Position numbers and translations under genes: made by a program | Part shown: positions 41,130 through 64,000 of the stretch, in pieces | Layout of the letters: every line of letters begins with the position of its first letter | How positions within the stretch are numbered: the stretch's first letter is position 1 | The notes under the pieces: generated by a model | Seen by the model: only the letters and a program-made list of their open reading frames with translations | What the model was told of the DNA's origin: nothing | The model's database searches: none | Assembly (NCBI GenBank): GCA_030374765.1 | Contig: JARGXX010000013.1 | Span: 620,001-684,000 of the forward strand | DNA from: Agarophyton chilense | Lineage: Eukaryota; Rhodophyta; Florideophyceae; Gracilariales; Gracilariaceae | DNA length: 64,000 nt | Direction of reading: 5' to 3'

Positions 41130-41522
41130 TGTAGAATTAAAACACGCAATCTGTTTCAGGTAGTTGCGTAGATTGCACTACAAATCCATCTAGCGAACGT
41201 TAGATAGACACGAAATGGAATATTTAATTTGAAATAGTAGTCTAACTTAGTAGATGTTGAATTAGAATGAAGCTGCTTACTTGGCTCGGTAGAGACCCAC
41301 ACCAAGCTCCCAGCCACTAAAAAACGCTTGGAACAAGAGAACTTCTTCTTCTGACGACAACAATTTATCGAACAACCTTCACTCTCTTTAACTCCAACTT
41401 CTCCCTCAGCATCACCGTCCTTCCCGCCCGTCTTGTTCTTCTTTCGCTTTCTACGTCGCTTACACCGTTTCCGCCACACCGCCGTTTCTACACCGCCTAC
41501 GCCGAATCGTCTTTTGCACAAC
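41130..41522 (+). repeat. 3' LTR of the Copia element
   Basis: Begins TGTAGAATT right after a purine-rich GAGAGGAGAA (polypurine-tract-like, 41119-41129) and ends at CTTTTGCACAAC. 41236-41522 matches the 5' remnant. It is followed at ~41523 by AGTATCACAGCTTGG, which resembles a Copia primer-binding site (initiator-Met type TGGTATCAGAGC). Confidence 0.7.
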
Positions 41523-41899
41523 AGTATCACAGCTTGGAGCCCCACTTCTTTTGAACTTCCCAGTTTCAGGAAGTCTCATAATCTTGCTTCATGGACCGAT
41601 TTTGTTCCAAATTAAACTGACATTAATATTAGTAATATGTTTTGGGCATGATTTAAATTACCCTGTGTTTCCAGATTCCCTTCTCAAGAAGGGTACATCA
41701 ATCGAGCTGATAAAAACTCAATGCAAAATCGGCATTGCCTCATTCATCTCAACGTTTCATTAACTGCTCTGAATAAGTAGCGGCACAAACCATTGCCCTT
41801 TGTGAATCCACAGTAAAGAGTCACGGTGCAAAAACAATCGGTCAATATCTGATGCAATCTGGGTTCATTTTCCTACGCAAACTTCTAGCGGAACATATC

Positions 41900-45154: not shown

Positions 45155-45949
45155 CTAAATAACCGTTCTTCTTCGCTCTGGATACAGAAAGTAGTGTCTG
45201 ATTGAAATTTCCAAATATGCCACGACCCGTTGGATACAATTTGCTATTTCAGTGCTGACAAACGTATGCTTTCGGTTTTTGACAAATGGAAGATCCAGTC
45301 CTTCTTCATATACGTAACCGTACTGCCACTTTACATCTATAAAAACTGATCTTAATTGCTGTACTGTTTCTTCTCTTTCAATTTCGAGATGGATTTCGAG
45401 AATCTTTGTCAAATCACCATAGTACATGTCTTTGGTCGACTCCGCTTTGCCCTTCGTAGTATCACTGGATCGAGAACTATCTGCATCTTCTTCATCTTCG
45501 TCTTGGACAAACTCAGCAACAATACAAAATTTCTGGCGAGCATTTTGCTGTCTTGCTGCCCTTTTTCTGTACCATTTTACAGTTTCAATCGAAACCTTTT
45601 TCGCTAAACTCGAGATAAAAGCTGACTTGTACTGCTTTGACTTGATGATCTCGAACTTTTGTTCATGAGATGGAAACATGGAAATTACAAATCGCGACAC
45701 TGCTGCTTCTTGGCTCTCGGAGAATTGGTAACGACTTCCTGAGCCGCTGCATTCAACATTGACATCAAGTTCAAAGCAAGTTTGTATTTCTGCAGAGCTG
45801 TTTTCATCCAACGCGTCCATCGTTATGCTAATCTCCACACTCGTACTAGGGTCAATTCCTTCATTCAAAACGCGAAGACAAAATAGCTTATGGTTCCTGT
45901 GGAACAAATGCGATTCCATGTTTCTCTTTGCGTGCATTCTTCTCCCCAT
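45155..45949 (-). CDS. Unrecognised 264-residue ORF in the transposon zone
   Basis: Opens with an ATG (MGRRMHAKRNMESHLFHRNH), is mixed charged with an Asp/Glu/Ser-rich stretch (VQDEDEEDADSSRSSDTTKG), and is predicted soluble. The frame has normal amino-acid variety, so it is likely a real, or recently real, coding sequence, possibly one exon of a transposon-borne gene extending through minus ORFs at 46249-46067 and 48023-47607. No family is recognised. Confidence 0.4.
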   Translation of the reverse strand: MGRRMHAKRNMESHLFHRNHKLFCLRVLNEGIDPSTSVEISITMDALDENSSAEIQTCFELDVNVECSGSGSRYQFSESQEAAVSRFVISMFPSHEQKFEIIKSKQYKSAFISSLAKKVSIETVKWYRKRAARQQNARQKFCIVAEFVQDEDEEDADSSRSSDTTKGKAESTKDMYYGDLTKILEIHLEIEREETVQQLRSVFIDVKWQYGYVYEEGLDLPFVKNRKHTFVSTEIANCIQRVVAYLEISIRHYFLYPERRRTVI

Positions 45950-47606
45950 TTCTCCGAGAAGCCTTTCAATTAGAAAATTTGATGTGATTGGAAGAGGGCC
46001 AAACTCTAGCAGAAGCTCAGGAAGGCGTAAAATGGCGTGCGTGGAAAGCGTTAAGCAGTATGCGTCCTAGTCCGACTTGTAAAACTTGTCGACAAACCGA
46101 ATGTACATTTCTTCAACTACAGATTTCATCTCTGTGACTGTTTCAGAGCTGCAATCATATCCAAAACTAGTTTCGACGAGCCTTGTTGTTAGTCTCCCCA
46201 TTGATATAATCTCTGGATTTACGTCGAACTTGTGCAAAAACGGAAGCAACTACAGCTCTGCCGCTCTCTTTAGTTCCTTAGCCTTTTAATTTCCAATTTC
46301 ACTGACATTTATTGGAGAAGGTCCCCAAGTGGCTGGGATTCCGCTTGAAGAAGTTGCCAGTGATTTATCAATTCTATGGAAGAGTTTTCTTGGGAGGCAT
46401 TCTGCCGGTGCTTAGGAGAGCCGTTTATGCCGGTAATGTAGTCCAAATATCAATTTCAGAAGATATTTTGTCCATTCCAACAGCACGAGGTGCATAAAGG
46501 CGTGTGAAAATGTGTATTCCTCATCAATAGAAGGTCTTCTCAGAAAACAGGCTGACTTGATTCCAGTGCTCTTCACTAGTTTTTTATATTACTCTTTGAG
46601 ATGGAGCTGTTGGAGACCTTTTTCCAGGTGTCAATATTTTCCGTTCTGTACCGTGTTGCACAGCACTATATGTTGATAACATCACCAACTCTATACACTG
46701 GTGTTTTTCTCAACACAGTCTTCCACACACGCCTTGGAGTTTTATGAGTAACACATGAACACTTGAGCTCTCTTACATGTTCCTTACACTTCAGCTGAAT
46801 CTGCAAGACAGGTTGCCAGTGTGTCGCACGTACCTCAATACCTTTGTAGTGGCTGTCAAATCAACAGTCAAGAACACGACAAAAGCTTTCAGCGTACAAG
46901 TTTTCTCATCAGAACAAACAACTCATATCTCTTGCTCAAGACGTTTTAGATCTTCTACAATCACATGTAGAAACGTTTCAAAATGTATACCCGAGTGAGA
47001 TCCTGGAACGATGGCAAGAATGAGAGCGTTGTTGGCCCGAGATCTTTCTAGGGCATTGAAATTCAGAATAGTCCTCCAAATCGACAATGTGGCCACTGGT
47101 TCTCCCTTTCTATTCTTATAACACTCGAAACCATCGTTGGAAAGAGAGAGGAACAAATAGATCTCGTCAGAGGCTTCGTTCTAGCGCTGCATATCCTCGA
47201 AAAACATTTTTCTAAACATCTGTCGGTGAAAGAAATCTTGATGAAATAAGTCATTGCTAGGATCCAAGCACCCCTTCTTCGAACGGAAGCAACCTTAACT
47301 GATTTCTTTAAATGAAACCGGAGCGGTAGAGAGTGATTTAAGGGCAATGGATGGTTTCATAAAACAAAAGCTTGTGCTTTGCGGCCCTTTAGTTGGCATT
47401 GAGCAAACTGGACAACTTGGTGAGTTTTTCAATCTTTCAGCAGATACTGCATGACCCGAAAAAAACATATTCCAAAACGACTTGGATGCAAACGAATGCC
47501 CTGCAAAGTAGGACTCAAGGCTCCCGTACAAAATATTTGAACAAACCGGTTCTACGACGAGGGGCTCCTCAATTGTTCTTTGTGATACATTAGAAAGTTC
47601 TGCAGT

Positions 47607-48023
47607 CTACAAAAAAGTGCTCAACTTGCGAAACTCCAAATCATTCGGGCCCAGTTCGAAATCTTCGTCTCTCTCTTCATAATATGAGTATCCAGAAACA
47701 ACATCTGAGTTTTGCTCTTCATCTGGGGGAGTTCTGAAACTTTGGAGGAGACTCCTTATGGATATGTCGGATCTACATGACCCCTGCGGCAGTTCGGCCT
47801 TTCGTATGGCTTCCGAGACGCAACGGCTTTCCAGCACATTATTTGTGATGAGTAGCAGATCTTCATAGACACCCTCTTCATCAGGATAGTGCTCAAGAGG
47901 ATTCTCGAGTGAGGAACGGAGCTCATTTTCACAGTTTACGTCTTCCTGATGGTCTTCCTCACGGTTGTGGGCTCCAGGGCTACGAACGTGTCCAACAGAG
48001 TTCTTAGAAAGTGTACCCATCAT
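47607..48023 (-). CDS. Unrecognised acidic ORF, same strand as 45155-45949
   Basis: 138 codons beginning with two Met codons, rich in Glu/Asp/Ser, no domain seen. It may be the first exon of the same decayed minus-strand gene; the intervening 46.3-47.5 kb holds only short broken frames. Confidence 0.3.
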   Translation of the reverse strand: MMGTLSKNSVGHVRSPGAHNREEDHQEDVNCENELRSSLENPLEHYPDEEGVYEDLLLITNNVLESRCVSEAIRKAELPQGSCRSDISIRSLLQSFRTPPDEEQNSDVVSGYSYYEERDEDFELGPNDLEFRKLSTFL

Positions 48024-48197
48024 CGGGAAGTGAGTGCGCTTAATCTCTCACCTCCATCTTCTTTTCTGACCTGAAGAACGCCACGTTTCTTGTTCTTGAA
48101 CACCTTCAGGTCTCTATGGTTGTGGTATTAGTATCGATGGGGTTTGCTCGTTTCCTATGTTTCATCTCTTTATTCGCTGTCTACCGCAACAATTGTA

Positions 48198-48772
48198 GTA
48201 TCCGCTCTAACGGAGAGAGCAGACACCTGCGACAGCGTTCTGACTGCCGATGGGTCGCTTGCGGCGAAGGAAAAGGGGTGGTAGAGCTACAACACCAGTG
48301 AGCTGGAAGTGGGGTGTAAGGCCACTACTCGCCAGCGAGGGTGGACAGTGCAACTGTAGAACGTTGACGGAACGTAGGTACGAGACGGCTCGTGAAGTGG
48401 TTGGGGGCTGATTATCTATTATAGCTCGTCCGGATCTCCGGTTAAGGAATCCTAAGCGAGGAACAGAATAGTCATGATGCCCATGTTGTCTCCTTTACTT
48501 GGAGTCGGCGCTCACCTCTGGTGCACTATTACTGTGTGCCAGGGTGAGGGCCCAAATAAAAATATAAATAATACCCAGTGGTCAGCCACTTAGCCAAACC
48601 ACTGTATGGGTATGGTCCCTAATGGACTTCTAGCTACAAAGGGTGGTAAAACCAGCCACGTGGATCGCCACTACATGCGCCGTTGCAAGCCACTCCACTC
48701 GTGATACCACGTGTCTCAACACTGTACCCTGCCTCCTGGCATTCTACGCGGTGTGCCGTTTCATATCACAAG
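48198..48772 (-). repeat. ~580-bp dispersed repeat (copy B, inverted relative to copy A)
   Basis: Reads GTATCCGCTCTAACGGAGAG at its left edge and ends near TGCCGTTTCATATCACAAG. It is homologous to the reverse complement of 37270-37794, with moderate divergence and indels. Confidence 0.7.
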
Positions 48773-51700
48773 TTTGATGACATCACTCACTTATGAGTTC
48801 CAACCGCGACTTCGCGAAAAACCAAACTATCGGATTCCCCGACATAGTAGAATACTACAATAATCAATATTGTCGCTCATTTTTGTTCCTAATGACACCG
48901 GAAACCGGAGTCTTTTTTTCTCTCTTTCAGATGTACCCCAGAAGAGACCAAAATGGTGGTTCAAAGAAGCCAACATAGGCTCCTCTCATTCATTTTCTCA
49001 AAAACATTAAAACTTTATCAGAAATTAGTCTTATTGATATATCGACATCGATATCTAGCTCTCGCGGGCCCTTGCACTCGCTGACCTGACCTTCAATCAC
49101 AGCATCTTGGACAAAACAAAACTTGAGAACCTTTTGGAGTTTTCGTGCTCCGTTTTCTTTCACTCAGAGAAGCTTTCGCTTCAAGTAGAGCGCGCGGACA
49201 TATGGAGTTCTCATTCCGATGACGGTTCTTAGGGCTCTCTCCTTCCACGCTTTCTTCTCCCTTAGTCTCAATCATATCGCTTTGCCTTCCTTGTGAAGTT
49301 TGGGTTCTGCCACCCAAATTACGCACTTCGCTTTCACTGGTTTCTCGTATTTCCCTCTAGACCTAAGATGAGACATCTAGAAGCGTACAAGTTCTTGTCT
49401 AATTCTCTCTTTCTTTGGTTCCCGTGAGTAATTCTCAATTCCAACCAATACGATTGTGATTGAAACCATTTCCGTTCTCTACTACGATCCATCGCAACTG
49501 ATTCGTGCATTTCCATGCATATTATCTTTTGCAACAATACCAAGATATTTTTCTCGACGGTAAGCTTGATTCCATCAATACTAGAAGTTTCAGAACCATT
49601 CACTAAATTATCTACTGTCCATTCCGCATTATCTTAGCTGGAATCCCTCGCTTCTTTCTCCACTCTAGGAGAAAGACCTGCATAGTAAGTCAAACCGGGT
49701 TTCACATCTTGTTCTGGACTCTGGATGGTCACGCCAACTCAAACATTCCACGTCATAGGACTGCCTCATTCCCTTGAAAGTATCACTCCCAAAATGGGTT
49801 CTCGCGTTTAGCAAGGAGTGACCGTCGACAGCCAGCCGGCGCCGACGAAAGGAAGCTTCGTCAATCATTCTGGCGCCGAGTCATCTGGGATTGCGCCTTA
49901 TTCTATTAATTTTCCTCGCCCTGCCTACAATCGAAAGATGAAAGATACAAATAGGCCAGGAGCCCTTGGAGCAGCGCTTTTCGCTCCATTGATATTCAAC
50001 CGTCTACACCGTCAACAAATGAGCTGCGGTGTGTTCTCCAATGAGAATTTTCCTGTATATAAAGAGATGGCCAATGCGATAAAGGATTTAATCAGGCAAT
50101 ATATCTATCAGAAGCTGTAACTGAGGACAGGAGAACGCACATAAACTTCGACAAAGATTGAGTATGCCTCTAAACTATCCCATCTGAAAAAAGGTCGTCG
50201 AAACGTTTTCGGTTCTTTCTGCAGCCCAGAACTTCTGGATTGATACCGAGTTCATTAAGGAGGCTATGCGGAGGGATAGAAAGGCAAATGTCGAAGCGTC
50301 GAACAGGGAGTCCAAGAAAAGGACCTGGAATGAAACTGGATCCAGCTTAGCAGGATGTCAGAGTCAGCAACAGCCATCCGAAATCGAAAGACGAGTTTCG
50401 AATAAGACAGGCGCCTCATTGAATGAAGGCAACAGAGATGAGGTGACAATTGCCCCATCTGATCGTCGTGGTTAACTTCATGCCCAACAGAATTCTGAGG
50501 AGGGTATTGATCCGCGTGAAATAGTTCAGGAAGCTCCGCAACGCAACCAAGAGACGACCATAAATCGTTTTGATGCCGTACACGCAATTCGCCAACCAAG
50601 TACGAAGAGCGGGTATCAAAACACATCTGACGAAAATAGTATCTTGGAAAAGGATAGTACCAGTCAGAGGGGACCCATTCAAGGCCAGGAAGTTTCGAAG
50701 AAACACTCGTACTCCGACTATGAGGCGGCCGAATCGGATTCTGGTGAGGAGGAAGAAAAGGAGTCTCTCAAACTTCCCCAGCGCAAGGCAATGAGAATGG
50801 AGGAGAAGCGCAGAAGCAACAGAGTTGAACCATCGCGCTCTCGAGCTCAACGTCATCGAAATTATGATGACATCGAAGCCTCGGAGGAAAGCGAGTCCTT
50901 TGAGAGAAGCGGATCCCCTTAGCACAGAGACATATCATCCATGAGAAGAAGCTCGCCAACTAGGAAGAAGGAATCAGGAGGTTTCCGACGTCACAGTATT
51001 GTTTCTCAGACAGGCAAATCCAAGTAAAAGACCTCCAGCTTTCGCCCACAGCGTTCGAGGAAACCGAAAAAATCGTAAGCAGCGTCGTTTAGTCTCCAAT
51101 CTCTGTTTGCAACTTTTCAACTAGTGGCATCCATTGTATGCCCTAGTTCCGTGATTGATGGTAGCATTAATGGTAGCAGAAGGCAAAAATGCCCCGCAGC
51201 AGCGCTACTGTCCATTTCGTCTTAATCCATCTTTCTTTTCCTCTTCTGTGAGTTATCCATATTCGATCCTCAGCTCTCCTATTTGCTAACAGTTGGATTT
51301 CTTCCCAAACAGGTTGTGTGTTTGTTTGTTTTTATGGGGTTGCATGATGCAACATGTACCATCGTGTCTAAGAATATTTTGATTTCTCGAAGTCATAATT
51401 ACGATCTGGAAGCTGTAAGCGGGACAGATCTAAAAGCCTTCATATTTCTTTACCCTTTTGAATTGTTAAGTTTTTTTGAAAACTTTTGTTTTCGTATGTG
51501 TTGCATTTTGTTTTCTGTTCTAATCCACTTTTGCGCCCCAAAACCGCTACCATTTCTGTTATTTATTCGACGATTATGGCCCTTTTCAGGAATCCAGACT
51601 ACTCGAGTCAAGTCAATATTGAACTAAATCCGTTCAAATTCTGTACTACTTTCGAATTTTTACAAGTGATATTACGTACAGAAGAAGAACCAATTTCGAA

Positions 51701-51940
51701 TAACAACTGAGTACTTCTGGCACATTTTCTTTGCATAAATCGGACCATGTTTTGTACCTAGCTTGTATCCAAATTGTTCCCTCCTAGTAGTCCAGCTTCG
51801 GTACTATGTTAAAAGGCACAAAACAGGGCATGTTTTGGCCATGTACGGACCATATCTGGTGATAAAATTAAGGCGCGTAGTGGTTTTAATCTAAACCTAT
51901 TTTTGGCCTTTTTTTGCCCAACCTCATTGCACACTGGGAG
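48773..51940. other. Degenerate repeat DNA, unassigned short ORFs
   Basis: Contains 49818-50120 (plus, 100 codons, ends LIRQYIYQKL) and Glu/Arg/Ser-rich frames 50266-50475 and 50644-50922 that look like fragments of one charged, disordered protein. No catalytic motif is seen. AT-rich non-coding DNA follows at 51060-51940. Confidence 0.3.
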
Positions 51941-51949
51941 CCACCCCCG

Positions 51950-54240
51950 TCACTGTTGTAAAGACAGGCACATACTAGGCTACTTTTACCCCTTTTGAGT
52001 TACACAGTCGAGAATAAAGGTCAGCCTAGTATCCTTATGATTTTCCGGACCAGCATGCGCTGTGCATCATCATCTACCGACGTGGTCTCAGTACGCCCGC
52101 CGTTCCCGTTGCACCCTTCAGTGGCTGGTGGTGCCACAACTTAGAGGTACCTTCAATCTTCGCCTCCTAGGTCGAGCACATTCCGCGCTCCCTAAAACCG
52201 ACAGGTGTTACACCCCCGCTACCGTTTTGGTTTATACCACATTTTGGTTTCCCGACTTAGAATTTGGTGTTCACCGCGTTTGGAATTGAAAAGGAGTATT
52301 TATATTGAATCCGTACTATTTGGTGCAGGAGTCACTGGTATAGAAATTGCTGACTCTTTAGTTTACCTTAGTAGAGAAATCATCGAGAAAAGCGCCGAGA
52401 CGCGTCACTAGGGCGCCTAGTGCACCAGTTGGTGGTCTCCCCCCACGCGAAGGCCTTCCACAACCAATCCTGGAAATCCCAGAGGAACTTCTTCGGAACC
52501 ACTCAGGTCGATAAGGCAGAACGGGAGATAGGAGGTCCCTCGACAGAAGGCCGAAATACCAATGTGCTTAGAAAACAGGACGAACCCTCTTTTTTGTCTG
52601 GATGGCGATTCAATTACCCGTGTGGTCGTTGATCGGGCCTGTCAGGAAGTGATGGATGCCGGTATTTATCGTCAATTACTTCGAGAACGAGTTAGAGAGA
52701 CAAAACGACCCATTGCTGATGCTATCCTACGGAATCATGGGGTTTTCCAACCCGGAGTCAAGGCAAAAGCAACCACCGTCAAGATGGAAGCCCAAGCCCC
52801 TCTTCAGAAACTTCATGAGGGTGATCTGCAATACAACCTTCCAACTTCGCAAACTATTGAGAATCCGAATGTCCAAATTCGGAGAGGGGCAGAGCCTCCA
52901 GCGATCGAGGGCCGAGGGTATTATTACCTACCATAACCTGCTCGTAAAGCTGCGGAGGGAACCATTGGCGGTGACCCTGATGGTAAAGGTGAGTCGTCGA
53001 GCTCTGAATAAGAGCCACACCGACGACCATCTGGTAAGTAAAAGAAGAAAACCAAAAAGCCAAAGAGAAAGGGGGACTGTTCGGACCATTACTCTTTGAG
53101 CTCGGAAACCGAATCAGGTTGGTCAACGGATGAAAGTCGAAAAGGTTCACGGAAACGAAGAAAAGATTCCCGTCGTAAGGGAGAGAAAGATGACGGCAAG
53201 GGTAAAATCCAACGGTTTGACTCGTCGTAGTCATATTACGACAGCGATCTGGATCTACAGGTGATCGTTTCGTTGAAACACCTTTTTTCAAAGGCGGCCG
53301 ACTCCCACACCTACAGTTTTGAGCACAAGATCTCTGAGTATAGCAAATAGATTGCTCAGACGATGACAAAGCATCACCAGAAGCTTAGTTTCCATATGGA
53401 GGATATCCGTTCGTCGGGAGATGAGCCCATCGCCATCATAGACTTGCTTCAGAAGTTCGAAATAGCATGTGATCAAAATGGGTTTTCAGAAGGTGCGGCG
53501 ATGTGATTATTTCAGTTTTACCTAAGACATCAGGCCGCCTACTTGTTACACAGCCACTTACACGGCAATAATATGGAGGTCGATGACTAACAGACAGGGA
53601 TGCTGACTACATACCCACAGATGGTGAAATTTCTTTTGGAAACCTATGCCACCGATGAGATGATTCAAGAAACATACCCTTAGGTGCTCTCACACCGTCA
53701 AAGAGCAGAGCAAACCGAATCGGGTTACGCACGATCGCTCCGGGAGACGGAGTTCCGATACAGTAACGTTTTTACGACCACAAAGTTAAGTTAATGTATG
53801 CTGATAACATCGACAAACCAATAAGTACTCAGGTAAGGGATTACCTTGGTACAAACCGTAAGGTGGTCTTTAACGCACTGGGCTGTTATGAACAGGATCT
53901 AGGGGATACGCTACGAATAGGGAAAAGGACTGTGGCCCCCACAACGAAAGAGACAAAGGATATAACGAAATAGTGAGTCTTTGGCATCAAAGAAGCATCC
54001 ATGACCGATGGCGGGTCAGATGGGCACACATCTCAGACTCTGTGGTCTCGGAAAGCTAATATTCGCAGCTAGTTTAGTATGCGGCAAGATATCTGGCAAA
54101 GAATCTGCGAAAAGTGACGGATCGCAGATGCAGAAGCAATTTCTGTTAATTTTTTAGAGTACCAGCTAGTTTTGGCTTTCGGATCTTTATCAAATTCCTG
54201 CACATTATGAAAGGGAAACGAATGCAGAAGCCCCTGCTAG
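51950..54240 (+). pseudogene. Degenerate LTR-retroelement gag-like region
   Basis: Broken frames 52420-52632, 52562-52936, 52656-53099, then 53220-53780 with several stops. The last reads like a retrotransposon capsid (DEPIAIIDLLQKFEIACDQN, then AYLLHSHLHGNN and FLLETYATDEMIQETYP), the pattern of Ty3/gypsy-type gag. GGTGGTGCCACAAC at ~52128 resembles a primer-binding site. No pol motifs were recognised downstream. Assignment is tentative. Confidence 0.4.
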
Positions 54241-55925
54241 TTAACCGCCTATATTTGGATGCCATACGCTAGATGTGAATGACCAACGTCCGTCTCAAAC
54301 ACCCTCACACCAACCCATAACACAATGATACCTCCCAGAACCACCATCCACATTACGACCTGGTTTCGTCCTCCCTCCCCTTGCACCCCTCATCCTCCTC
54401 CCCACTCCCCGAAATCCCTGCTACAAACCCTCCTTCACCCTTCTCCTCTTCCCTATCAACCCCCCTAACCCCAGCTCCAAAAACCGTCCCACCTACCCTC
54501 CCAATCTGCAACCTACACCACCCATCCACACGCGTCACACCTCAACCCCGCCCGCCTCCACTCTTCTCCCAAACACCCTTCCAGTCCTCCACCTCCATAG
54601 CTTCGCCTCACAACCCTCTTCAAGATAGCAATGAAGACATTGCTGTCGTTTCAATCTCCGGCACAACCTCTTCCTAGGTGACTGCGAACCCGCAGGTTTC
54701 CACAAACGTCTACTATACTACTGCTCCTTCGATGGACACTCAGCTTGCCGCCTATCTTCAGATTTCGTGAGGGTATGGATTCCGAGCGTGTTTCAAAGAC
54801 ATAGAGCATCCAGTTCATTGAACAAAATATTTACCATGTGTCACATTCGAAGCGAAACACGTCCCAGAGTAAGCGACAAACCTTCTGAACACAAGTAGCG
54901 CAACATATGAACGTGAAATGATTTGTAAGAAAGTATCGCTGCGGCGTGTCATCGTCGGGGTTGCTTACTCTAGCATGCACGCACGAAGCTTTTGTAACAC
55001 AGCGTTTCGAAGTAACTCAGCCGCATTCGAATGTGTCCACCTCACTCTGTCGCACAATGATTAGTGTGTGGAATTTCCTCTCCATTCGTGCGCGTCAAAG
55101 AGATTGGACTGACACTACATCATGCACTTCTGCCTTTGTTTGGGGGGGGGGGCTTTGCTCTAATTGCTACAAAAAATCGGTCCTCTAACGCACTCTTCGC
55201 TTCCCTATAAAATTCACCCGTCCCATCCCGCCCCCTGCTCTCGTCTCGATCCCATGGAATGGCCAACCCCCCTCCCTCCGCCTACCTCAAAGACAGGATT
55301 AGAAAATTTTTTCAGGTTTCACACATAGTCAACGCTGCTGGCTAGTCGTACGTATTTCGTTCTTCTCGCGTGTATTTCGACCCATCGCCACAATGAATCT
55401 TGCACTAACCAATGCCTCCTTTTCCTTCTTTGTGCAGGATTAAGTCGTAACAAGTCACCGAGACCATCTGTCTCCAGGAGTAGCGGAGGTTGGACGTCAC
55501 CAGAGGCTGATCAAAATGGAGAGGAAGTATGAAAGGGCTCGTGATCGGCGCCAGTCGATAGTCCCAAGAAGAAGTGCCCTCTGTACACCTCTGAGGTCGG
55601 GTGTATAGGGGGGTACTGTCCACTACCCGGCGACTCTTTTGTAGTTGTTTGACGCAGGCTGTCGACAGGATGGGCTAAAAAGCATTAAATAAAGAAGGAA
55701 AGTCACAGGGATAGGTTCTCATCGTCAAGCTGCAATCTTTCGACTCGACCTAGAACTGGATTTATGAATCGTCTGTGTTCTCGGAATGCTAGATAAGTGT
55801 GCTAGATAGCTAGTTTTGTAAATAAAAATCCAAAAAAATCTAAGAATTTTGCAGATTGCGCTAGTTCGGCACCTGAAAAAAATTTTTGGAAATAAGAACT
55901 CCATGCATCTTAGTGTTTTGACCAA
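54241..55925. other. Unassigned, low-complexity C-rich patch and degenerate DNA
   Basis: 54345-54560 is CCT/CCA-rich in both flanks, G9 at 55141-55149, with short ORFs of no recognisable family. The AAGTCGTAACAAG word at 55442-55454 matches the conserved 3' end of small-subunit rRNA but the match does not extend. Confidence 0.3.
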
Positions 55926-56019
55926 TTAATGCAGTTTAATCTGCATTTGCAGTTTACTGGTCACTTTTGACCGCTCTAGGTGGAGATCCATACCAAGGCA
56001 ATCGTCAGTACCTTCTACC

Positions 56020-56674
56020 TCATTACTGGCCCTTTTGCTTACTAGGCTCCAGCGATCCACCGGGAGGGTATTTGAGGTTGAAGAAGTCCACCACCGCATT
56101 CTCAACCTCGTCCACCTCCCCACTGCTCAAGTTCCTCACACCCAGCTGCCCCATCACACACACATTCCCACCCTTCTTCTCCACATCCTTACCAACCCTC
56201 CTCTTCTTCAGCCGACTCTCTCCAACTCCTCCCCCTTTCCATTCCTCTCTCCCCTTCTTCATCCCAGCCGGCTCCCCGCGTCTCCCTGGCGTCACCGGCG
56301 ACCCTTTCGCTCTCCCCCTCTCCTCTCCCACCTCCTTCAACACCTTCCGCGCACCCCAAATCTCCCCCACCCCTTCCATGTGCACTTCCCACACCTTCAC
56401 ACGCCTCTTCAGTTCCTCATTCGCTCTCCACAGCTTCCCCATCTCCAGCCCCATGGGGATCCGCTCGACATCGCCAACGCCCGCGAAAGCTATCGACGAG
56501 AGCCACCGCAAGCGCAAGCGCACTCACCTTAGTGCGGACAGTAGTACCCGCAGCCTCCCAAACAGCACCCATCCTCGAAAATCCTCTCGCCCACCTCTGG
56601 CCTTTTATCTCCTTTTTTTGACCCGCTTTTCGCGCGCCCTCGCCCAATTTCAGTACCCTCGTACACCCCTGCAT
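56020..56674 (-). CDS. Candidate spliced gene with a charged coiled-coil-like protein
   Basis: The minus frame 56523-56023 encodes a Lys/Glu/Gly-rich protein with a helical stretch (MGKLWRANEELKRRVKVWEV). A minus-strand AAG/GTGAGT donor lies at ~56532 at the end of another open stretch (56674-56533). A first exon ending there is possible, but the downstream acceptor and phase could not be fixed. No family recognised. The opposite strand is an equally long Pro/Ser/His-rich frame, judged a shadow. Confidence 0.35.
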
Positions 56675-57065
56675 CTACGCTCCGGATGCCCTTCACCCCA
56701 CTCATTGCTCACTCACACACTCCCATCCATATTCCTACACCTTCTATCATGTTCAGCGCTCCCTCACTACTCCCAATTTCATAGCCTTCTCATTTATAAT
56801 AAATCACACTCATTCGTAACACAAACCGCCGATTACTCATAAGCCCTCTTTCCCGTTATGACTTCCATAACAACACAAACTCCTACACTTTTAACACAAT
56901 AAACACCATTCAATATCATAAATCTAACCTCCTCCCCAAAAACCCCTAACACCCATTCCTCCACGACCATACTCCTTCTCTATTTAATCACATCTCCACA
57001 CTCGCCACCCCCACCACTTCTTCAATTCCAAGCACACCGCACTCCAAACACCTTTCGCAATCAAC

Positions 57066-57890
57066 ATGACCGACTCTCTCACTGCCATCCCTTGCACCTC
57101 CGACCCAGCCGTTATTGTCGGCAGAGGCCGAATCGGCACTTTGCTTCGCAACAACGGCACCCCACAAGATGCTTTTCTCTCAACTCAAGAATTCATCTCC
57201 GCGCAATACATTCCCGACGGCCCCATTTTCTTCTGCGGCAGAAATCATTCACTCGAAGACGTCATTCAATTCTGCCCTTCCTCCCGCAGAGAGGATCTGG
57301 TCTTCCTTCAGAACGGAAACATTCTCCCTCTTCTTTCAACCTATGGGCTCCAAAACTGCACCAAAGCCGTTCTCTTCCTCGCCGTCCCCTCCCTTAACGC
57401 ACCCCGCGAGGACGGTGTCACCCTCCTCAGTCCCCATGGTCTCACAACTGCCACCGGCAAATGGGCTCCCGCACTCGCCAATCGCCTCAGTAACGCAGGC
57501 CTCACTTGTCATGTCGTCGACCAGCCCTCCTTTTCTAAAGCTTACTACGAAAATCTCGTATGGATATCAGCTTTTAATCTCGTCGGCTCCTCTTATGGCT
57601 TTATCACAATGCACGAAGTTGCAGTACAACACCGCACAATCGTTTCAACCAAAATGAAAGAGCTCCTCGCCATCGTCACATCCGAAACAGGAATCGCCTA
57701 CAATAAAACAGAAACACTCCAAAAACTTCTGGCCCACGGAAAAACACTTACACTGTTCCCCACCTCGTTCTCAGACTTTGAGTTACGGAATGTCTACTTC
57801 TACAACGTTTCTAACGCCCAAAAATCCATTGGAAACCGTGACCCCGCCTCTTTCCATACGAACTTCTTGAACGTCCTCCTCAATGGGTAG
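57066..57890 (+). CDS. Rossmann-fold dehydrogenase-like protein (ketopantoate reductase-like)
   Basis: 274 residues, ATG at 57066 after an AT-rich leader. The N-terminal AVIVGRGRIGTLL (residues ~15-27) is a Gly-rich dinucleotide-binding turn (G-R-G-R-I-G). Then IFFCGRNHSLEDVI and EDLVFLQNGNILPLL follow the V.QNG.......G pattern of ketopantoate reductase/6-phosphogluconate-type enzymes. The catalytic-domain part (NLVWISAFNLVGSSYGFITM) keeps a K/N-rich helix but no clear catalytic Lys could be assigned. It may reduce a keto acid with NADPH, or be a diverged relative. Intronless. It lies beside unusual genes in the accessory block. Confidence 0.55.
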   Translation: MTDSLTAIPCTSDPAVIVGRGRIGTLLRNNGTPQDAFLSTQEFISAQYIPDGPIFFCGRNHSLEDVIQFCPSSRREDLVFLQNGNILPLLSTYGLQNCTKAVLFLAVPSLNAPREDGVTLLSPHGLTTATGKWAPALANRLSNAGLTCHVVDQPSFSKAYYENLVWISAFNLVGSSYGFITMHEVAVQHRTIVSTKMKELLAIVTSETGIAYNKTETLQKLLAHGKTLTLFPTSFSDFELRNVYFYNVSNAQKSIGNRDPASFHTNFLNVLLNG

Positions 57891-58270
57891 TACTTCATTC
57901 ATATACCCCTTCCAATAAAAACAAGTCCTCCTTTCTAAAGCATATGTCCATCTCCTTCGCTGCTTTGATAAAGACTGCTATCCGCACGACACCACGTCAG
58001 AATATACGAAACGATATTAGGAATTGCTTCGTACATCACAAATCATCACTAAAACCACTCTTCATAAATCTTCCAACTTTGCAATTAAGTCTGTACCCAA
58101 TAACCGCTCCTACAGCCTATCAAAGGTTTTCATTCATAACAATTATTCATACTCCGCGACAGAGATACGGCAACAACCTAACAACTACTTTGATCACTAC
58201 ATATATATAACCACCGATGACCACCCTACTTCATTGCGCTCAACATACTGTATCCAGTCCCTCACAAATA
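57891..58270. other. Spacer, AT-rich
   Basis: 3' flank of the dehydrogenase-like gene and leader of the next coding region; no distinct signals. Confidence 0.35.
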
Positions 58271-58650
58271 CCTTTCTACACAACACTCTCCTCTCCTTCT
58301 CAAGCCTGCAGCGCTACGAAGCACGTCTTTCCCTACCCCCTGGTTCTTCTGTCCAATGCTCAGCAGCTGTGGATATTCTTCCACAACGAACGGTTATCAC
58401 CATCGACGAAGTCCTTCAAATCAAACTTCCAACCACCCAGAATGTGGTCGAAGTCAGAGGGTTCCAGAATCATATCACCAACGAGCTCATGGACGAGATT
58501 CGTGACATTTGTACGGCCACGAGGAGGCTCCCCACTCGCAACTCCCTACAGCAGCAAGATACTCTGAAACAACTGTTCAAAGAGCGGTATCATATCGTTA
58601 TCTATGTGCAGCGTACAAGGAAGACTAGCAAACCGGAACGCCTTTACTAA
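58271..58650 (+). CDS. Unrecognised coding stretch upstream of the membrane protein
   Basis: An open frame (entered at ~58024 without an ATG) with protein-like content: LSLPPGSSVQCSAAVDILPQ, TVITIDEVLQIKLPTTQNVV, ELMDEIRDICTATRRLP. It lacks a credible start and stops at 58650, 14 nt before the next frame. The two may be exons of one gene joined across a short intron ending TTCAGTTAG at 58663. Confidence 0.35.
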
Positions 58651-58663
58651 GATATTCAGTTAG

Positions 58664-59491
58664 CAAACACTCTTCACATCGACCTTAACGTTCACAATCA
58701 CACTAACTACACTCTTTGGAGTTATAGACCCAGCTCTGCAATATACGCTTCCATTCAGATTCAACTCTCTCCTTCGGTTCATTCTCATAACGCTATTGAG
58801 ATGTTCTATCCAAAGCCTGCTACACATTCTCATAATCGAAGGAGGCGTACAATGTATAAACGCGTTATACGGGTCTCTACAAACTACGCCGTTCAATCCA
58901 AACCAGCGATATACCTGGAAAAAACGAGCCTTTCTGGAATTCGGGGCTCTACTCCTTACTCTACTCATCCCCCTCAACCCCATATTTTTCCTCGTTCACC
59001 GCTTCATTCCAGTCAGCGGTACCCTTTCATCAGACGTGAAGACAAATTGTATCGCCTTCTCCACAGGAGGGGCTGCAGTTGGCGCTTTGGCATATCTTCT
59101 CCAGCTTGTTTCTATATCCTTCTTTCCAGAGTCCTATCTTAACACAAAGTTCACAATGACCCCGGAACCACGGAGAACCTCTTTTATGAACCTCGTGCTT
59201 GGCGCTTTCTCCCACTCTTTTCAACAGGCTTTATTCATATCCAGTCCGGATGTAACCTTCCGACTACTCGGTATGAGGCTGTCGGCATGCACTTTCGCTG
59301 CACTCTCTTCAACTGCCTTCTCCACCTCTCGTATTGAGGGACCTGGTGTTCCTATACTGCTTGGTAACACAGTGGATGTCGTAATCTTGATATCTTCGAC
59401 AGTTGTCATTCACTATGAAAAAGTGAAAGCAAGTGCTACTCTCACGCGTTTCAATCCAGTTGTTCAGGAGTTTCTACTGAAAGACGACTGA
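58664..59491 (+). CDS. Multi-pass membrane protein of unknown function
   Basis: 275 codons open from just after a TAG; no ATG occurs near the start, so it is probably a downstream exon. Hydrophobic segments include FTSTLTFTITLTTLFGVI, FGALLLTLLIPLNPIFFLV, AAVGALAYLLQLVSISFF, LSACTFAALSSTAF and LLGNTVDVVILISSTVVIHY, suggesting 5-6 membrane passes. The C-terminus is soluble. No family is recognised. Confidence 0.45.
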   Translation, partial: QTLFTSTLTFTITLTTLFGVIDPALQYTLPFRFNSLLRFILITLLRCSIQSLLHILIIEGGVQCINALYGSLQTTPFNPNQRYTWKKRAFLEFGALLLTLLIPLNPIFFLVHRFIPVSGTLSSDVKTNCIAFSTGGAAVGALAYLLQLVSISFFPESYLNTKFTMTPEPRRTSFMNLVLGAFSHSFQQALFISSPDVTFRLLGMRLSACTFAALSSTAFSTSRIEGPGVPILLGNTVDVVILISSTVVIHYEKVKASATLTRFNPVVQEFLLKDD

Positions 59492-59572
59492 TCACTATTA
59501 CAAGAAAAGGGGACTACTCCACATATTACCTCAAATTGTACTCTTTATTGTTCAATAGGTAACAGATACTAT

Positions 59573-60229
59573 CTAGTCGTCGTCGTCATCCATTATCATA
59601 CCGCCGTCTTCATAGTCTCCATCTGTGTTAGCCGAGTTGAGACCCATCCCAGGTTCATCATCCTCTTCTTCATACTCCTCTTCCCCACTTTCAACAACTT
59701 CCATTTTATAATCTTCATCCAACTCCTCATCCTCATCTACCTTGACGTCTTCATCATCACCCTTGTTGGAATCATCCTCTTCGAACTTAGGCCGAAATGC
59801 TGGTTGCCTATGCACTGCGTCCGGTAGCTTGTACCCATCCGGTACTAAGTACATGTGATACCTCATGCAAACTTCCTTTACCAATGCATCCTCGTATCCA
59901 GCTCCAGCATGAAACACATCTCCTCTTCCAATAAAAATGGAGTACGGCGGAATCCTGAACTTCCTCACTACCATCGTCCGAGACAGCCGCTTCAAGCTCC
60001 TGTCGTCGGGCACGTACATGTTATGTGACCTCTCACAAACCCAAAGCATAAACGAACTCGCTCCCGACGCCATCATGAAGAACCCTGGAACCTCTACGAC
60101 GTTCTTCTCGGCATCGGTCAGTCCTCGAAAGTCCGTATGTAACACCTGCCTTGGACAGCCCTCCGCCGTACACAGCACTCGCCCCCCTGTTTCAGGGGCA
60201 TCCTCTTCTTCCCCGACCTGTTGTTGCAC
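59573..60229 (-). CDS. C-terminal block of a giant protein: 2-oxoglutarate/Fe(II) oxygenase-like domain
   Basis: 218 codons, first codon GTG inside the preceding frame, so a continuation rather than a separate gene. RQVLHTDFRGL supplies an H-x-D pair and SIFIGRGDVFHAGAGYED the distal His, followed by CMRYHMYLVPDG with a candidate 2-oxoglutarate-binding Arg. Between them, FFMMASGASSFMLWVCERSH has the expected strand pattern. This HxD...H double-stranded beta-helix arrangement is that of 2OG/Fe(II) dioxygenases and related cupins; the substrate is unknown. A strongly acidic tail (DEDEELDED..., ending DDDDD) follows. Confidence 0.6.
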   Translation of the reverse strand: MQQQVGEEEDAPETGGRVLCTAEGCPRQVLHTDFRGLTDAEKNVVEVPGFFMMASGASSFMLWVCERSHNMYVPDDRSLKRLSRTMVVRKFRIPPYSIFIGRGDVFHAGAGYEDALVKEVCMRYHMYLVPDGYKLPDAVHRQPAFRPKFEEDDSNKGDDEDVKVDEDEELDEDYKMEVVESGEEEYEEEDDEPGMGLNSANTDGDYEDGGMIMDDDDD

Positions 60230-62330
60230 AACCGAAGAGCGGCCGCAATCTGTCCAAACCTCGCATCCAACAATGCCCTTTTCCTCAGCATTAAAACGTT
60301 GTTCTCGTCCCCCTCCACAGAATCCACAATCCCCACCTTCGTCGTAATGTACCGCCCAACTCCCTCCATTCTATCTCCAGCATCTCTGTCCTCACCAGCG
60401 TTGATTATAGGGTCCCATTTCTTTCTATTCCCTTCAATCGTCAAGTCCGGCTGGTTCAAGAAATCCGTCTGGAAGAACTCTAGCAAAGCCCCAGTCACAT
60501 CCCTATCGAAGTTTACACCCCTCTTCTTCGCCTCATCCGCCATCCCCTCGTCCGTGGCAAACTCTTCCAGCACACAAAATCCTTTCTCCATCAGCTCACT
60601 TCTCTTAGTCGCGAAGTACTCGCGGGCCAAGTCATCCCTCTCCATTGCTGCCATCCATATCGCCTGCTCTTCATTCACAGGGTGGTCCTTCGTTGGTAGA
60701 ATCACCCCAAGAACCGGTTCTTTCGTGGAACACAGTTCCTTGTGCCTGTTATGAGCAGCACGCCAATAAACCGCATGGTGCACACTTTTCAAGTCTTCTA
60801 CCCTCAAGCACTGCGCCCTGTGCTTGTTCCGTAGGTAAATCATCTGCATCCAGAGGTGCTGATGCTTCACTCCATTTTCACCTGCCGGCCACTCGCTCGG
60901 AAGTGCATTCACCAAGTACACCCACGACATACCCGACCCCCCCGCATACGGTCCCGCCCCCTTCAGCCCCTTCGGAACACCCTCCGGAAAATTGTCTTCG
61001 AAGCCACGCATTTGCACACCTTCCTCCTCTTCGTCCCCTACAAATGCACCCTGCCCCCCGTCATCATCCAGTTCATCCTCACTCGATGAGAAAACATTGA
61101 GTACATGTTCCTTCAAGAAGCGCTTCAGCTCTTTCCTGCTCATATTCTTGAACACATCCACCACGTCAGCCGGTATTTGAGCCGCAGATGTGCCCACCGT
61201 CTTTCTTCTCTTCCTCTTCCGCTTTAAAGGCTGTTCATACTCGCGTTCATCATCACTAATGACCACAGCTTTTCTCTTCCCCTTTCTCTGTCTAGGTTCC
61301 ATCACCCTCTCACCCGCAGCATCCAGCCCGCGCTCAGTACCTTTTCTAGTTCGTGTGATGCGTCTGGGAACCACGGTTTCCTGGTGGGGTACAGACTCCC
61401 CAGCACTAGACGAAGGAACATTCACAGAAGGTGGCACCTCCACCACATCCTTCTCCGCACTTGGGGACGCCAGACTCACTTTAAGACCGCCTTCAATCCG
61501 CCTTTGTGCGATTTTCATCCTCTTCGACACCAACCCCGGCCACAACCGCTTCGGACCACTGAGCTCCATCTTCGCCGTTTGCATGCAAAGGTACTCCCTT
61601 AAAGACACATCGTTCTTTCCCATCACAATTGTGCTGTCTAGAACCTTCCCCGCCGTCAGACCCTTCTCCTTTCCCGCCCTTTCGCATAGTTGGAACATTC
61701 CTATGGCGCATTGGAAGAACTGCTTTCGCGTCTCCTGGAAACGTCCCATATTTCCCGTAGAACCCATCCCCACCCTCACATGTAGCTGCAAACAACGGAT
61801 TGCGAAACGGAATATTTCGTCTTCGAGTCCTAACAACAAGTCACTCGACACATGCGCAAGCGTTAGCACTGGACCCTCCTTGCATACGTTCTCAAAGAAC
61901 TCCAGGAGACCTTCGCTCCTGACGAATTTCAACCCAAGAGTCGCATAGCGATTCAAGTGGCGCAAGCTGTAGATTCCTATAGCTTCGCTCGTCTTCAGCG
62001 CCCCAGCTATCCGTGTCGGAGTAAGGTCAGCCAACTTGGTTCTCTTATCGTCAATCAAGTTGCAAATGAAGGACACTGTCGAATGAACCTTGTCGGCGAC
62101 ACTCATCTTCAACACATTTGAACTCATTTCATTGAGTACATTACCAAGACCGAGCACTTCGTTCAGCGATAAAGGCTTCCGGTCCTTTCGTCTCCAAAGA
62201 ACGACATCAAGAGACCGCACAATTTCCAACCACTTTCTCCCTTCAGAGGGATCATTCTTCAGATCTCGCAGAACCAAGACGCGGTGATGACCGTCAATGA
62301 GTATATGACAGGCACCACTACCCTCCCATT
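60118..62330 (-). CDS. Central block of a giant protein, with a ParB/sulfiredoxin-like DGHHR motif at its start
   Basis: ORF 62277-60118 (719 codons, first codon TTG) is open further upstream in the same frame to ~62330, where it reads CHILIDGHHRVLVLRDL (DGHHR at 62295-62281). That is the nucleotide-binding motif of ParB-N/sulfiredoxin-like domains. After an all-helical region come a nuclear-signal-like basic stretch (RQRKGKRKAVV, KRKRKRRKTVG), acidic linkers, and a region with conserved-looking Trp/His (KHQHLWMQMIYL, VYWRAAHNRHKEL). The end (WDPIINAGEDRDAGDRMEG... RKRALLDARFGQIAAALRL) is the usual front half of the oxygenase domain completed in the next frame. It overlaps the next block by ~110 nt through a frameshift near 60220. 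Confidence 0.55.
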
Positions 62331-63257
62331 GTGAACAATTTCACTGAAATCTAATTCCATGCCCCCGACGATGGCAACAGCAATCGACCCTGCCGACGCA
62401 ACCCAGCCAAACGTTTTGCACTTTGCCATCGCCGCCGCCTTGTGTTCCGCATTCAAACTTCTGACAGTCTTCTCGGGGATTTGTATGTCATCTATGTCCA
62501 CTATCAAGCGGCACTGGTCATAGTCTGAAACAGAGATCTTCTTTTCCACGAGAGTCCTATCCCCTTCCTGCGAAGGAACGGCATCGCCATCATCGAACAA
62601 CTCCAACTCGGGACCGGTGTGCGAATCCCTGCGTACATTCACCGCTGACCCCACCTCCACAACATCTTCATCAGAATCATCCACTATCGTCACCCTCTTT
62701 TTCGGCTTGACGGGTTGCTTCATGGCCGGCGGCACTGTTGTTGGCTGTGCCCTCTTCCCCCTCAAAGGCGTAGCAGACTCCTTCGAGGGGGTCGCGCTTT
62801 TGGGAGTCTCCGGCCGAGGAGGCCCTGGAGTCAGCACAGAGGAGACGCGTGTCATCATCGAGGTATCCCATGCGTATATACCTGCCGACACCATATCCTT
62901 CAGCAACTCCGGCGGCTCCTCTGCTCCCTTGAAGGAGTACGGATACTTGGAGTTGATCCCCTCCTTAATTTCAGTCCTCCAGATGGCCACCGAGTCCTCT
63001 CCCGGCTTCGCAGACTCGCGCAACGAATGGCCATGCATCGCTCTGCAAAGCGCCTTCCCGGCCGCTCCACTGCCCCCAACACCTCTCAACTCCGCAGTGC
63101 CAACCATAGTACCCTTCTTCATCCCTGTCCCATCCGCCAGGAACAACGCCACCCTATCCCCATCAGCCAGATTGTTTCCCGATGTAGCTTTTCGCGGAGT
63201 GGCGCGTGGAGTACCCCGCGGAGTACCCCTCGCTTCCGCTTTGCCTCGAGTCATCAT
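62259..63257 (-). CDS. N-terminal block of a giant protein: first part of a ParB-like domain
   Basis: 332 codons from the ATG at 63257 (MMTRGKAEARGTPRGTPRAT). The basic Thr/Pro/Arg repeats at the start resemble chromatin-binding tails. Middle: a Ser/Pro linker and an acidic patch (DDSDEDVVEVGS). Residues ~245-310 (SVSDYDQCRLIVDIDDIQIP, then LNAEHKAAAMAKCKTFGW) have the layout of a ParB-N domain: a strand, a target-residue strand with IP, and a helix. The DGHHR motif that should follow is in the next frame, reached by a one-base shift near 62320-62330. That continuity is the main evidence for one protein. A short intron could also explain the shift, but no clean donor/acceptor pair was found. 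Confidence 0.55.
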   Translation of the reverse strand: MMTRGKAEARGTPRGTPRATPRKATSGNNLADGDRVALFLADGTGMKKGTMVGTAELRGVGGSGAAGKALCRAMHGHSLRESAKPGEDSVAIWRTEIKEGINSKYPYSFKGAEEPPELLKDMVSAGIYAWDTSMMTRVSSVLTPGPPRPETPKSATPSKESATPLRGKRAQPTTVPPAMKQPVKPKKRVTIVDDSDEDVVEVGSAVNVRRDSHTGPELELFDDGDAVPSQEGDRTLVEKKISVSDYDQCRLIVDIDDIQIPEKTVRSLNAEHKAAAMAKCKTFGWVASAGSIAVAIVGGMELDFSEIVHNGRVVVPVIYSLTVITASWFCEI

Positions 63258-63551
63258 TTGAATCGGATCGTAGTCGGTCGAGGTTGCAAATGGTCGCAGA
63301 GCGCTTTGAGCCTTTTATGGTATACAGACTAAGACGTATTAGATCGAGCTTTTTTGGTGGCGACTATCCGGAACATTCCCGAGAGCAGTTCGTTGCAATC
63401 AGCCTGAATTACGTCCGCTTAGTTTCAACCTGAGCTACGTCCGCATTAGTTTCAAACTCAAGAAACTCCTTGTCTCTTTCCATCACAAACACGCCTATTG
63501 GCTTGGTAGGCGATACAAGAAAATAAAAATAAAAAATTAAAAATATCCTCA
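63258..63551. other. Upstream flank of the giant gene
   Basis: No gene is seen. It holds a near-duplicate phrase (CTGAATTACGTCCGCTTAGTTTCAA / CTGAGCTACGTCCGCATTAGTTTCAA at 63404-63454) and an A/T-rich stretch before the hairpins. Confidence 0.4.
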
Positions 63552-63620
63552 CGGCCGACAGAGGTGCGCTCCGACTTCATCGGGGGTCCCGATGAAGTCC
63601 CCGCGCACCTCTGTCGGCCG
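63552..63620. repeat. 69-bp hairpin, unit 1
   Basis: Arms 63552-63584 and 63588-63620 (33 nt each) are reverse complements at 30 of 33 positions around a 3-nt loop (GGT). The mismatches are clustered (TCCG opposite CCCC). Ends are CGGCCGACAGAGGTGCGC. Confidence 0.95.
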
Positions 63621-63679
63621 ACATAATACATATAATTTTGTAATTTTTGGAACGCTCAGGTGTACACGGTGCACTCTGT

Positions 63680-63748
63680 CGGCCGACAGAGGAGCGCGGG
63701 GACTTCATCGGGACCCCCGATGAAGTCGGAGCGCACCTCTGACGGCCG
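63680..63748. repeat. 69-bp hairpin, unit 2 (inverted copy of unit 1)
   Basis: Arms 63680-63712 and 63716-63748 around loop ACC. The whole unit is nearly the reverse complement of unit 1, and 59 nt of AT-rich spacer separate the two. Confidence 0.95.
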
Positions 63749-63924
63749 ACAGAATGCAACCAGGATAGCTGCGAAGTCGTTCCGCAACAACCGTTCTTCC
63801 GTGCGCGCTCCTCAACCGTACTCACAATCTTTCCGTACCCACCCGCACCCACCCGCACCCGCTGCTCTCTTTCACTCAGGCTCTCGTGACGACCGCCCGT
63901 GAGGTTGTTTGAACATGTACATAA

Positions 63925-64000
63925 ATGGCTCCAGAACCCACGAGAACTTCTTCATCGCCTGCGGCAGACACCTTCGAAATGGGTAAACTGTTTGGTACGG
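63925..64000 (+). CDS. Possible start of a gene running off the right edge
   Basis: An ATG at 63925 opens a frame (MAPEPTRTSSSPAADTFEMG...) that stays open to the window end, 25 codons. Ser/Thr/Pro-rich start; too short to identify. Confidence 0.25.
   Translation, partial: MAPEPTRTSSSPAADTFEMGKLFGT

Follow-up and report, generated by a model that had tools for sequence, protein, structure and literature searches.

DNA transposons carrying DNA-modification genes have been reported from fungi, in which some Plavaka elements encode TET/JBP dioxygenases (Kojima 2025, PMC12730594). In the same report, the Plavaka transposase is defined by catalytic-region motifs of the form C(2)C and H(3-4)H, and phage sets of methyltransferase and TET/JBP genes are given as a precedent for base hypermodification (PMC12730594). 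Retrotransposons of dinoflagellates and charophytes are described with C5 DNA methyltransferases (PMC5890265), bdelloid rotifers have the host gene N4CMT, whose product reportedly makes 4mC (PMC8885841), and the giant Plavaka repeats of Amoebidium contain many tyrosine recombinases and form clusters of up to 50 kb (PMC11244446).

The 64,000-nucleotide stretch of Agarophyton chilense DNA analysed here (the window) contains part of an element that resembles fungal Plavaka transposons in its Plavaka transposase, its short target duplications (2-3 bp) and a cargo gene of DNA-modification type (PMC12730594). Its termini (CGTCAG) contrast with the fungal TGT..ACA or CATCA..TGATG (PMC12730594), and it is therefore not filed under fungal subgroup A or B. 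Whereas the fungal elements described there carry TET/JBP genes, the present one has no TET/JBP match and combines a palindrome array with genes for a methyltransferase-SET fusion and a 1,228-aa protein in an apparently non-fungal setting (PMC12730594). Like the dinoflagellate and charophyte retrotransposons, it encodes a predicted DNA methyltransferase, but as a DNA transposon with an amino-methyltransferase-SET fusion rather than a retrotransposon with a C5 enzyme (PMC5890265). N4CMT likewise joins a bacterial-type N6_N4_MTase to a eukaryotic chromatin domain; there, however, the partner is a chromodomain and the gene belongs to the host, whereas here it is SET and transposon cargo (PMC8885841). 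The Amoebidium repeats are also large, multigene and linked to a Plavaka transposase, and their genes reportedly have relatives in red algae or dinoflagellates, but the methyltransferase-SET/large-protein pair goes without mention among the genes described in the accessible text (PMC11244446). Our searches of the open-licence literature found no such pairing among the papers listed.

Results

The window copy of the large ORF is spread over three overlapping minus-strand frames, 62259-63257 (332 aa), 60118-62277 (719 aa) and 59573-60229 (218 aa) (Table 1). The original prediction took these for one protein, possibly transposon-borne, for which uninterrupted and multiple copies should be sought. 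Both exist in the window's own genome, which holds many loci matching each of the three blocks, 57 near-identical copies of the large ORF among the matches listed, and a single 1,228-aa ORF from an ATG in 7 of the 16 main-family loci fetched (L009-L024, a non-random sample that contains the window copy and was picked mostly for the length of its open frames). By this comparison, the three frames are one predicted protein. Over the 3,683 bases that align with the intact copy C117, the window copy differs by 40 substitutions and by a small indel at each of two places, around 62305 and 60202; both indels change the frame in the same direction, as the prediction had it. Since the intact copies are continuous and the window copy shows other decay besides the small indels, introns, programmed shifting and assembly error are rejected as causes of these changes. 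Judged from the alignment, the window copy is the product of ordinary decay of a single gene copy, which makes introns or programmed shifting unnecessary and also explains why neither the second nor the third frame begins with ATG.

Table 1. Coordinates of features of the element within the window
Position	Strand	Feature	Basis
59573..63257	-	1,228-aa gene, decayed copy, with DGHHR (ParB-like) and HTDF...FHAG (2OG-like) motifs and two small frame-changing indels	ORFs, genome matches, intact-copy comparison
59573..60370	-	Open frame; 2OG-like region (C-terminal half, HTDF...FHAG...RYHMY) and acidic tail, both from ~60205 downwards	ORF, paralogue alignment
55770..55792	+	Right-hand terminal inverted repeat, CGTCTGTGTTCTCGGAATGCTAG; one-base difference from the left terminus	Match ends; termini of 11 copies
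57066..57890	+	ORF of 274 aa within the element, in a stretch common to copies; best Pfam E only 0.17	ORF
58024..58650	+	ORF of 208 aa within the element; may not be a gene; no Pfam match	ORF
58796..59491	+	ORF of 231 aa within the element; hydrophobic stretches by eye; no Pfam match	ORF
63551..63758	.	Pair of long palindromes (motif TGTCGGCCGACAG..) from the array that separates the divergent genes	Palindrome scan (L024)
63925..64000	+	Divergent DNA methyltransferase-SET gene, first 25 codons; continues beyond the window	tblastn, 100% identity over 25 aa; full gene in the C117 copy (L052)

The large ORF is almost certainly cargo of a cut-and-paste DNA transposon of about 18.8 kb and of the Plavaka type. 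The predicted transposase matches PF18759 (1.2e-22, 81 bits against a Pfam cut-off of 26.3), and 41 of its 44 listed matches cover at least 976 of 1,087 residues. Its translation contains CHRC, HLLDH and then E, judged by eye to represent the Plavaka-defining motifs. The element ends in inverted termini of 23 bp, which read CGTC[A/T]GTGTTCTCGG in the 11 copies compared. The left terminus, CGTCAGTGTTCTCGGAATGCTAG, lies outside the window for the window copy (about C13:693903) and marks the start, to within 5 bases, of 38 of the 40 listed matches; at the right terminus (window 55770), 30 of 34 listed matches stop within 4 bases. Fourteen end pairs are 14.7-18.8 kb apart. Of 11 copies, 9 are flanked by a 2-bp target duplication, a match seen in 12 of 110 mismatched pairs; the window copy is one of the two that lack a matching flank. 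A stand-alone gene is ruled out by the shared ends, the transposase and these duplications. Relatives of the large protein were absent from IMG/VR, GTDB contigs, phages and plasmids, as were those of the methyltransferase-SET protein from IMG/VR; such collections of viruses, prokaryotes and plasmids are little informative on algae.

Divergent from the large ORF, the element carries a gene for a DNA N6/N4 methyltransferase-SET fusion, both parts of which are very probably enzymes. The methyltransferase domain is well above threshold (PF01555, 3.4e-18, 66.9 bits against 26.7), and SET passes by a narrow margin (PF00856, 8.2e-5, 23.4 bits against 22.4). The N6/N4 class has the motif DPPY, and DPPYNI is found in the methyltransferases of this family and of the second one described below; in the PDB, the best relatives are two adenine methylases, DpnA and CcrM. 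It is through this neighbour that the predicted role in DNA or chromatin modification gains a link, the large protein itself contributing none.

The region between the two divergent genes is the sole location of long palindromes (arms of at least 25, loops of up to 6) in all 16 pieces scanned (8-10 kb, a non-random sample), with 2-8 in each. Their motif is plentiful in the genome, at 653 sites. A deleted derivative of the element keeps both ends and the palindrome array while its two genes are gone. Together, these comparisons show an element carrying a predicted Plavaka transposase, inverted termini, 2-bp target duplications, a divergent gene pair and a palindrome array. CpG was undepleted in the stretches measured (observed/expected 0.88-1.19) and thus gives no hint of strong CpG methylation to escape.

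As a separate observation, about a dozen palindrome clusters stand away from copies of the large ORF, as counted by eye in the 100 of 653 sites listed; two of these were fetched (L071 and L072).

The ParB and 2OG labels of the large protein rest on motifs. The originally predicted ParB/Srx and 2OG folds are not confirmed, although the motifs are conserved. DGHHR and HTDF...FHAG both occur in the intact copy P0001, and of the putative metal triad H-x-D...H, each of H, D and H is present in 14 of 16 paralogous rows and all three in 12, with an arginine at +16 in 10 (broken copies and some closely related ones are among the rows). Profile searches and modelling gave the folds no support. Pfam, NCBIfam, PHROGs and PDB sequences returned chance-level, unrelated matches only, which were set aside (Peptidase_C93 and DUF6887 in Pfam, PHROGs at E 0.011 to 0.4, PDB chains at E of at least 0.38), and an AlphaFold single-sequence model was unusable (pLDDT 41). 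PF02195 (ParB_N) had no match in the whole genome at E up to 10, with 11 of 14 control genomes positive. An hhalign comparison with nine plasmid ParBs gave a probability of 0.4% from a thin profile (Neff 1.9), for which three broken paralogues were read and one used. ParB membership is therefore unsupported, within the low power of that profile. Another profile of the large protein drew on 9 of the 16 paralogous rows. TET/JBP membership is ruled out at the sequence level, PF12851 having no match in the whole genome at E up to 10 (the control was positive in 1 of 14 genomes, below cut-off). We regard a 2OG-like fold as probable and place the odds for a ParB-like fold at about even.

A relative of the large ORF, 37% identical, lies among other palindromes near contig ends. 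This second family sits within tandem units of ~773 bp, every one of which contains an inverted repeat of 33-36-bp arms, and the start of C95 has telomere-like repeats. On C92, one of the four loci checked, the divergent order recurs around different inverted repeats, with a methyltransferase-SET gene of 38% identity (PF01555, 6.3e-17, 62.7 bits; PF00856, 1.2e-5, 26.2 bits, again a narrow margin over the cut-off of 22.4); in the other three, a methyltransferase gene was absent within 3.3-3.7 kb upstream. When the two families are compared, pN is lowest, among seven regions, in the 2OG-like one (dN 0.38, with dS saturated).

Discussion

We consider it an even bet that the methyltransferase-SET gene and the large protein form a self-marking or anti-silencing module of the Plavaka transposon. 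The ParB-like part of the large protein, with its DGHHR motif, would bind the palindromes, a putative contact to which we give slightly less than even odds, and the protein's C-terminal part would act as an iron/2-oxoglutarate oxygenase. The methyltransferase-SET protein would mark element DNA, with adenine a likelier substrate than N4-cytosine, and may also mark histones or other proteins. The large protein might then erase or further oxidise marks around the docking array, and the pair together could keep the element expressed and mobile despite host silencing.

The strongest competitor, though unlikely, is that the transposon carries the pair, of host or foreign origin, by chance, and that neither gene plays a part in its life. 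It finds support in pN/pS, which is near neutral among young copies (pooled 0.84, pairs 0 to 1.46, in the 7 of 16 main-family loci with full ORFs); at such values, present selection on single copies is invisible. Chance carriage sits poorly with the deleted derivative, which keeps both ends and the array though its two genes are gone, and with the second family, in which a divergent pair with intergenic inverted repeats and both frames open was found once at 37-38% identity. Open frames in both genes at that distance imply that the pairing is long-lasting.

Somewhat less probable still is a scheme in which the methyltransferase and the oxygenase carry out consecutive steps towards an unusual modified base on element DNA, as has been proposed for the phage sets. 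The linkage of a methyltransferase gene to an oxygenase-like one speaks for it, but TET/JBP has no match here and the oxygenase fold is putative. We consider improbable an addiction or restriction-like module in which the palindromes are protected by the methyltransferase and, when unmethylated, are cut or blocked by the large protein. Palindromic sites do adjoin the methyltransferase gene, some ParB-superfamily members are nucleases, and a PHROG match named endonuclease spans the DGHHR stretch at chance level (E 0.4); yet profile searches, Pfam and PHROGs among them, found no significant nuclease domain, and the motif's abundance across the genome also counts against such a module. Least probable of all, by a little, is a segregation or subtelomere-organising system of ParB-like protein and palindromic satellites that the transposon acquired later, for which the tandem units near contig ends and the telomere-like repeats of C95 speak, but whose ParB fold is putative, with neither the PF02195 search nor hhalign in its favour.

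Beyond the element itself, the self-marking reading can be widened to a self-addressed epigenetic module, in which a methyltransferase-SET and ParB-like/oxygenase-like pair surrounds its own palindromic docking array, as Plavaka cargo and at a subtelomere-like satellite locus alike, palindrome and binding protein changing together while the architecture stays constant. We advance this generalization tentatively and think it rather unlikely.

To conclude, the presence on the element of an enzyme predicted to methylate both DNA and protein points to a transposon in charge of its own chemical marks. If true, this would be an independent case outside fungi with another toolkit, in which a palindrome array and a second large protein accompany an amino-methyltransferase-SET fusion. 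With this element, it becomes testable whether a transposon is able to write its own marks on DNA and protein, and to edit them.

RESULTS

The gene in question, a 1,228-aa ORF bearing DGHHR and HTDF...FHAG motifs, was originally predicted to be possibly transposon-borne, and its sequence context indicates that it is cargo of a Plavaka-type transposon. The type assignment comes from the transposase encoded by the element's left-hand gene (PF18759, E 1.2e-22), which has at least 44 matches in the genome. With window 40001-59500 as the query, 30 of the 34 matches listed stop no more than 4 bases away from window 55770; one of the remaining four ends 11 bases short at a contig start, and three fall in other parts of the query. 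At the left, a 10-kb stretch of C117 served as query: of the 40 matches listed, 38 start at its positions 7525-7532. The termini are inverted repeats, CGTC[A/T]GTGTTCTCGGAATGCTAG, and 14 end positions, among the matches listed, pair as copies 14.7-18.8 kb long. Among 11 copies with both ends fetched, equal 2-bp flanks occur in 9, all but C71 and the window copy, versus 12 of 110 mismatched end pairs; none matches over 3 bp, and one matches over 4 bp with a palindromic flank. An insert-free related sequence lies at about C117:1462600-1463240, its flanks agreeing by eye over 1 bp only.

The three minus-strand frames at 59573-63257 are present as predicted, and their reading as one protein is borne out by a continuous ORF from ATG in 7 of 16 main-family loci (L009-L024, the last being the window copy), picked largely for long open frames. 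Multiple copies and uninterrupted versions were also found by a tBLASTn-type check in the alga's own genome (79.8 Mb in 135 contigs, with the window at C13:620001-684000). Searched block by block, this genome holds at least 122 N-terminal, 66 middle and 126 C-terminal matches, lower bounds in that the best candidates alone were scored; by eye, 57 of the 126, window copy included, are at least 90% identical over at least 171 of 218 residues. The window and C117 copies differ by 40 substitutions over 3,683 aligned bases and by two small indels. Since these indels sit at both frame junctions and intact copies are continuous, the frame changes are decay of the window copy. Pooled pN/pS among the 7 intact main-family copies is 0.84, which indicates nearly neutral evolution of single copies.

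Eleven relatives at 39-46% identity carry 3-6 in-frame TAG stops versus 0-2 TGA and 0-2 TAA. The TAG excess may reflect common ancestry in a single dead copy, a mutational bias or TAG read-through.

The predicted ParB/Srx and 2OG labels hold as conserved motifs and lack fold or profile support in our searches. DGHHR of the main family is DGLHR in a second, diverged family. In 16 aligned rows, which include broken copies and near-duplicates, the putative 2OG triad keeps H, D and H in 14 each and all three in 12, and an arginine 16 residues further on in 10. The C-terminal region also has the lowest pN of seven regions between families. Pfam, NCBIfam, PHROGs and PDB gave chance-level matches only, for single sequences, two-row and nine-row profiles and a consensus; PF02195 and PF12851 had zero matches in the genome, hhalign against nine plasmid ParBs returned 0.4% with a thin profile, and the AlphaFold model has a pLDDT of 41. 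In our judgement, the C-terminal part is probably 2OG-like, and the case for a ParB-like DGHHR part is evenly balanced.

Divergent from this gene lies one for a 1,043-aa protein with N6_N4_Mtase (3.4e-18) and C-terminal SET (8.2e-5) domains, both exceeding Pfam cut-offs, and at least 44 genome matches. Among solved structures, adenine methylases match it best, followed by the N4-cytosine enzyme PvuII (E 0.0033). Its motif is DPPYN, a form that suggests adenine as the putative substrate.

An array of 2-8 palindromes per copy separates the two genes (arms of 33-94 bp, loops of 1-5 bases, spacing often 128 bp) and is confined to this intergenic region in 16 of 16 main-family pieces of 8-10 kb (arms of at least 25, loops up to 6). 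With loops up to 60, the 64-kb window holds four, three intergenic and one at 40362. The motif TGTCGGCCGACAGRGGTG, allowing one mismatch, has 653 genome sites versus 0 for the reversed control. Some of the first 100 sites listed fall outside copies of the 1,228-aa gene; of two such sites inspected, one (L072) bears a right-hand terminus and the other (L071 92-4284, on C1) is a 4.2-kb internally deleted derivative that retains palindromes, both termini and part of the transposase and gives no match to either cargo protein.

Fifteen C-terminal-block matches at 52-56% identity define the second family, a relative of ~1,297 aa that is 37% identical to the first across most of its length. The distance to the contig end is at most ~31 kb for thirteen of them and at most ~62 kb for the remaining two; the C95 start (L026 1-900) has irregular telomere-like CCCCTAAA/CCCTAAA repeats of varying length. 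Tandem units of ~773 bp flank the gene on both sides at all four loci read (L025-L028), each unit containing an inverted repeat with 33-36-bp arms, unlike the first-family palindromes in sequence; single such repeats also occur in L055 and L060. The C92 locus, ~50 kb from its contig's end, has a methyltransferase-SET gene divergent from the second-family gene, with two of these repeats in between; its product aligns at 38% identity over 994 residues and has both domains (PF01555 6.3e-17, PF00856 1.2e-5). Two diverged families thus show this pairing, the second at one of four loci. At C95, C31 and C106, the 3.3-3.7 kb upstream contain no methyltransferase-SET gene. The second-family pieces examined gave no transposase match; a more distant relative (L058) gave a weak one, 37% over 73 residues.

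Features of the window, the element and related loci
Feature	Location	Strand	Remarks
FHA-domain protein	window 5327-6595	-	7.9e-13
Malic enzyme gene	window 21539-23182	+	PF03949 3.4e-93; single open frame, ordinary host gene
PIF1-like helicase ORF, 957 aa	window 27806-30679	-	PF05970 7.5e-39; with the next two ORFs, could be a Helitron
Two ORFs beside the helicase	window 30658-31233, 31314-32987	-	557-aa one without Pfam match
Copia-type retrotransposon fragment	window 38648-40078	+	RVT_2 2.3e-12; integrase below cut-off
Methyltransferase-SET gene, first 25 codons	window 63925-63999
Element copy, 18,774 bp	C117 1463530-1482303
Element ORF, 410 aa	L029 1396-2628	-	No Pfam match; possibly spliced or non-genic
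Element ORF, 385 aa	L029 2996-4153	-	No Pfam match; highly basic by eye; possibly spliced or non-genic
TAG-rich eleven relatives	C16, C25, C68, C7, C77, C103, C135, C75		C-terminal-block matches

DISCUSSION

Fungal Plavaka elements form two subgroups whose termini differ from those described here, and no cargo like this one was found in the open-licence literature searched. In fungi, several DNA-transposon superfamilies, including Plavaka, have members that carry TET/JBP dioxygenases, which are proposed to relieve silencing (PMC12730594). The anatomy of the red algal element can be read from its sequence, and we infer every step of its action by analogy with the fungal cases: the methyltransferase-SET protein would be a writer carried by the element, and the 1,228-aa protein a possible eraser or oxidiser docking on the element's own palindromes. 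Both the near-neutral evolution of single copies and the lack of CpG depletion in the stretches measured count against such an anti-silencing role. According to a review, the red seaweed Gracilariopsis chorda has ~8% methylation, mostly outside CG, and another red alga bears H3K27me3 on repeats (PMC8566409). Red algae therefore have silencing that such a transposon might escape.
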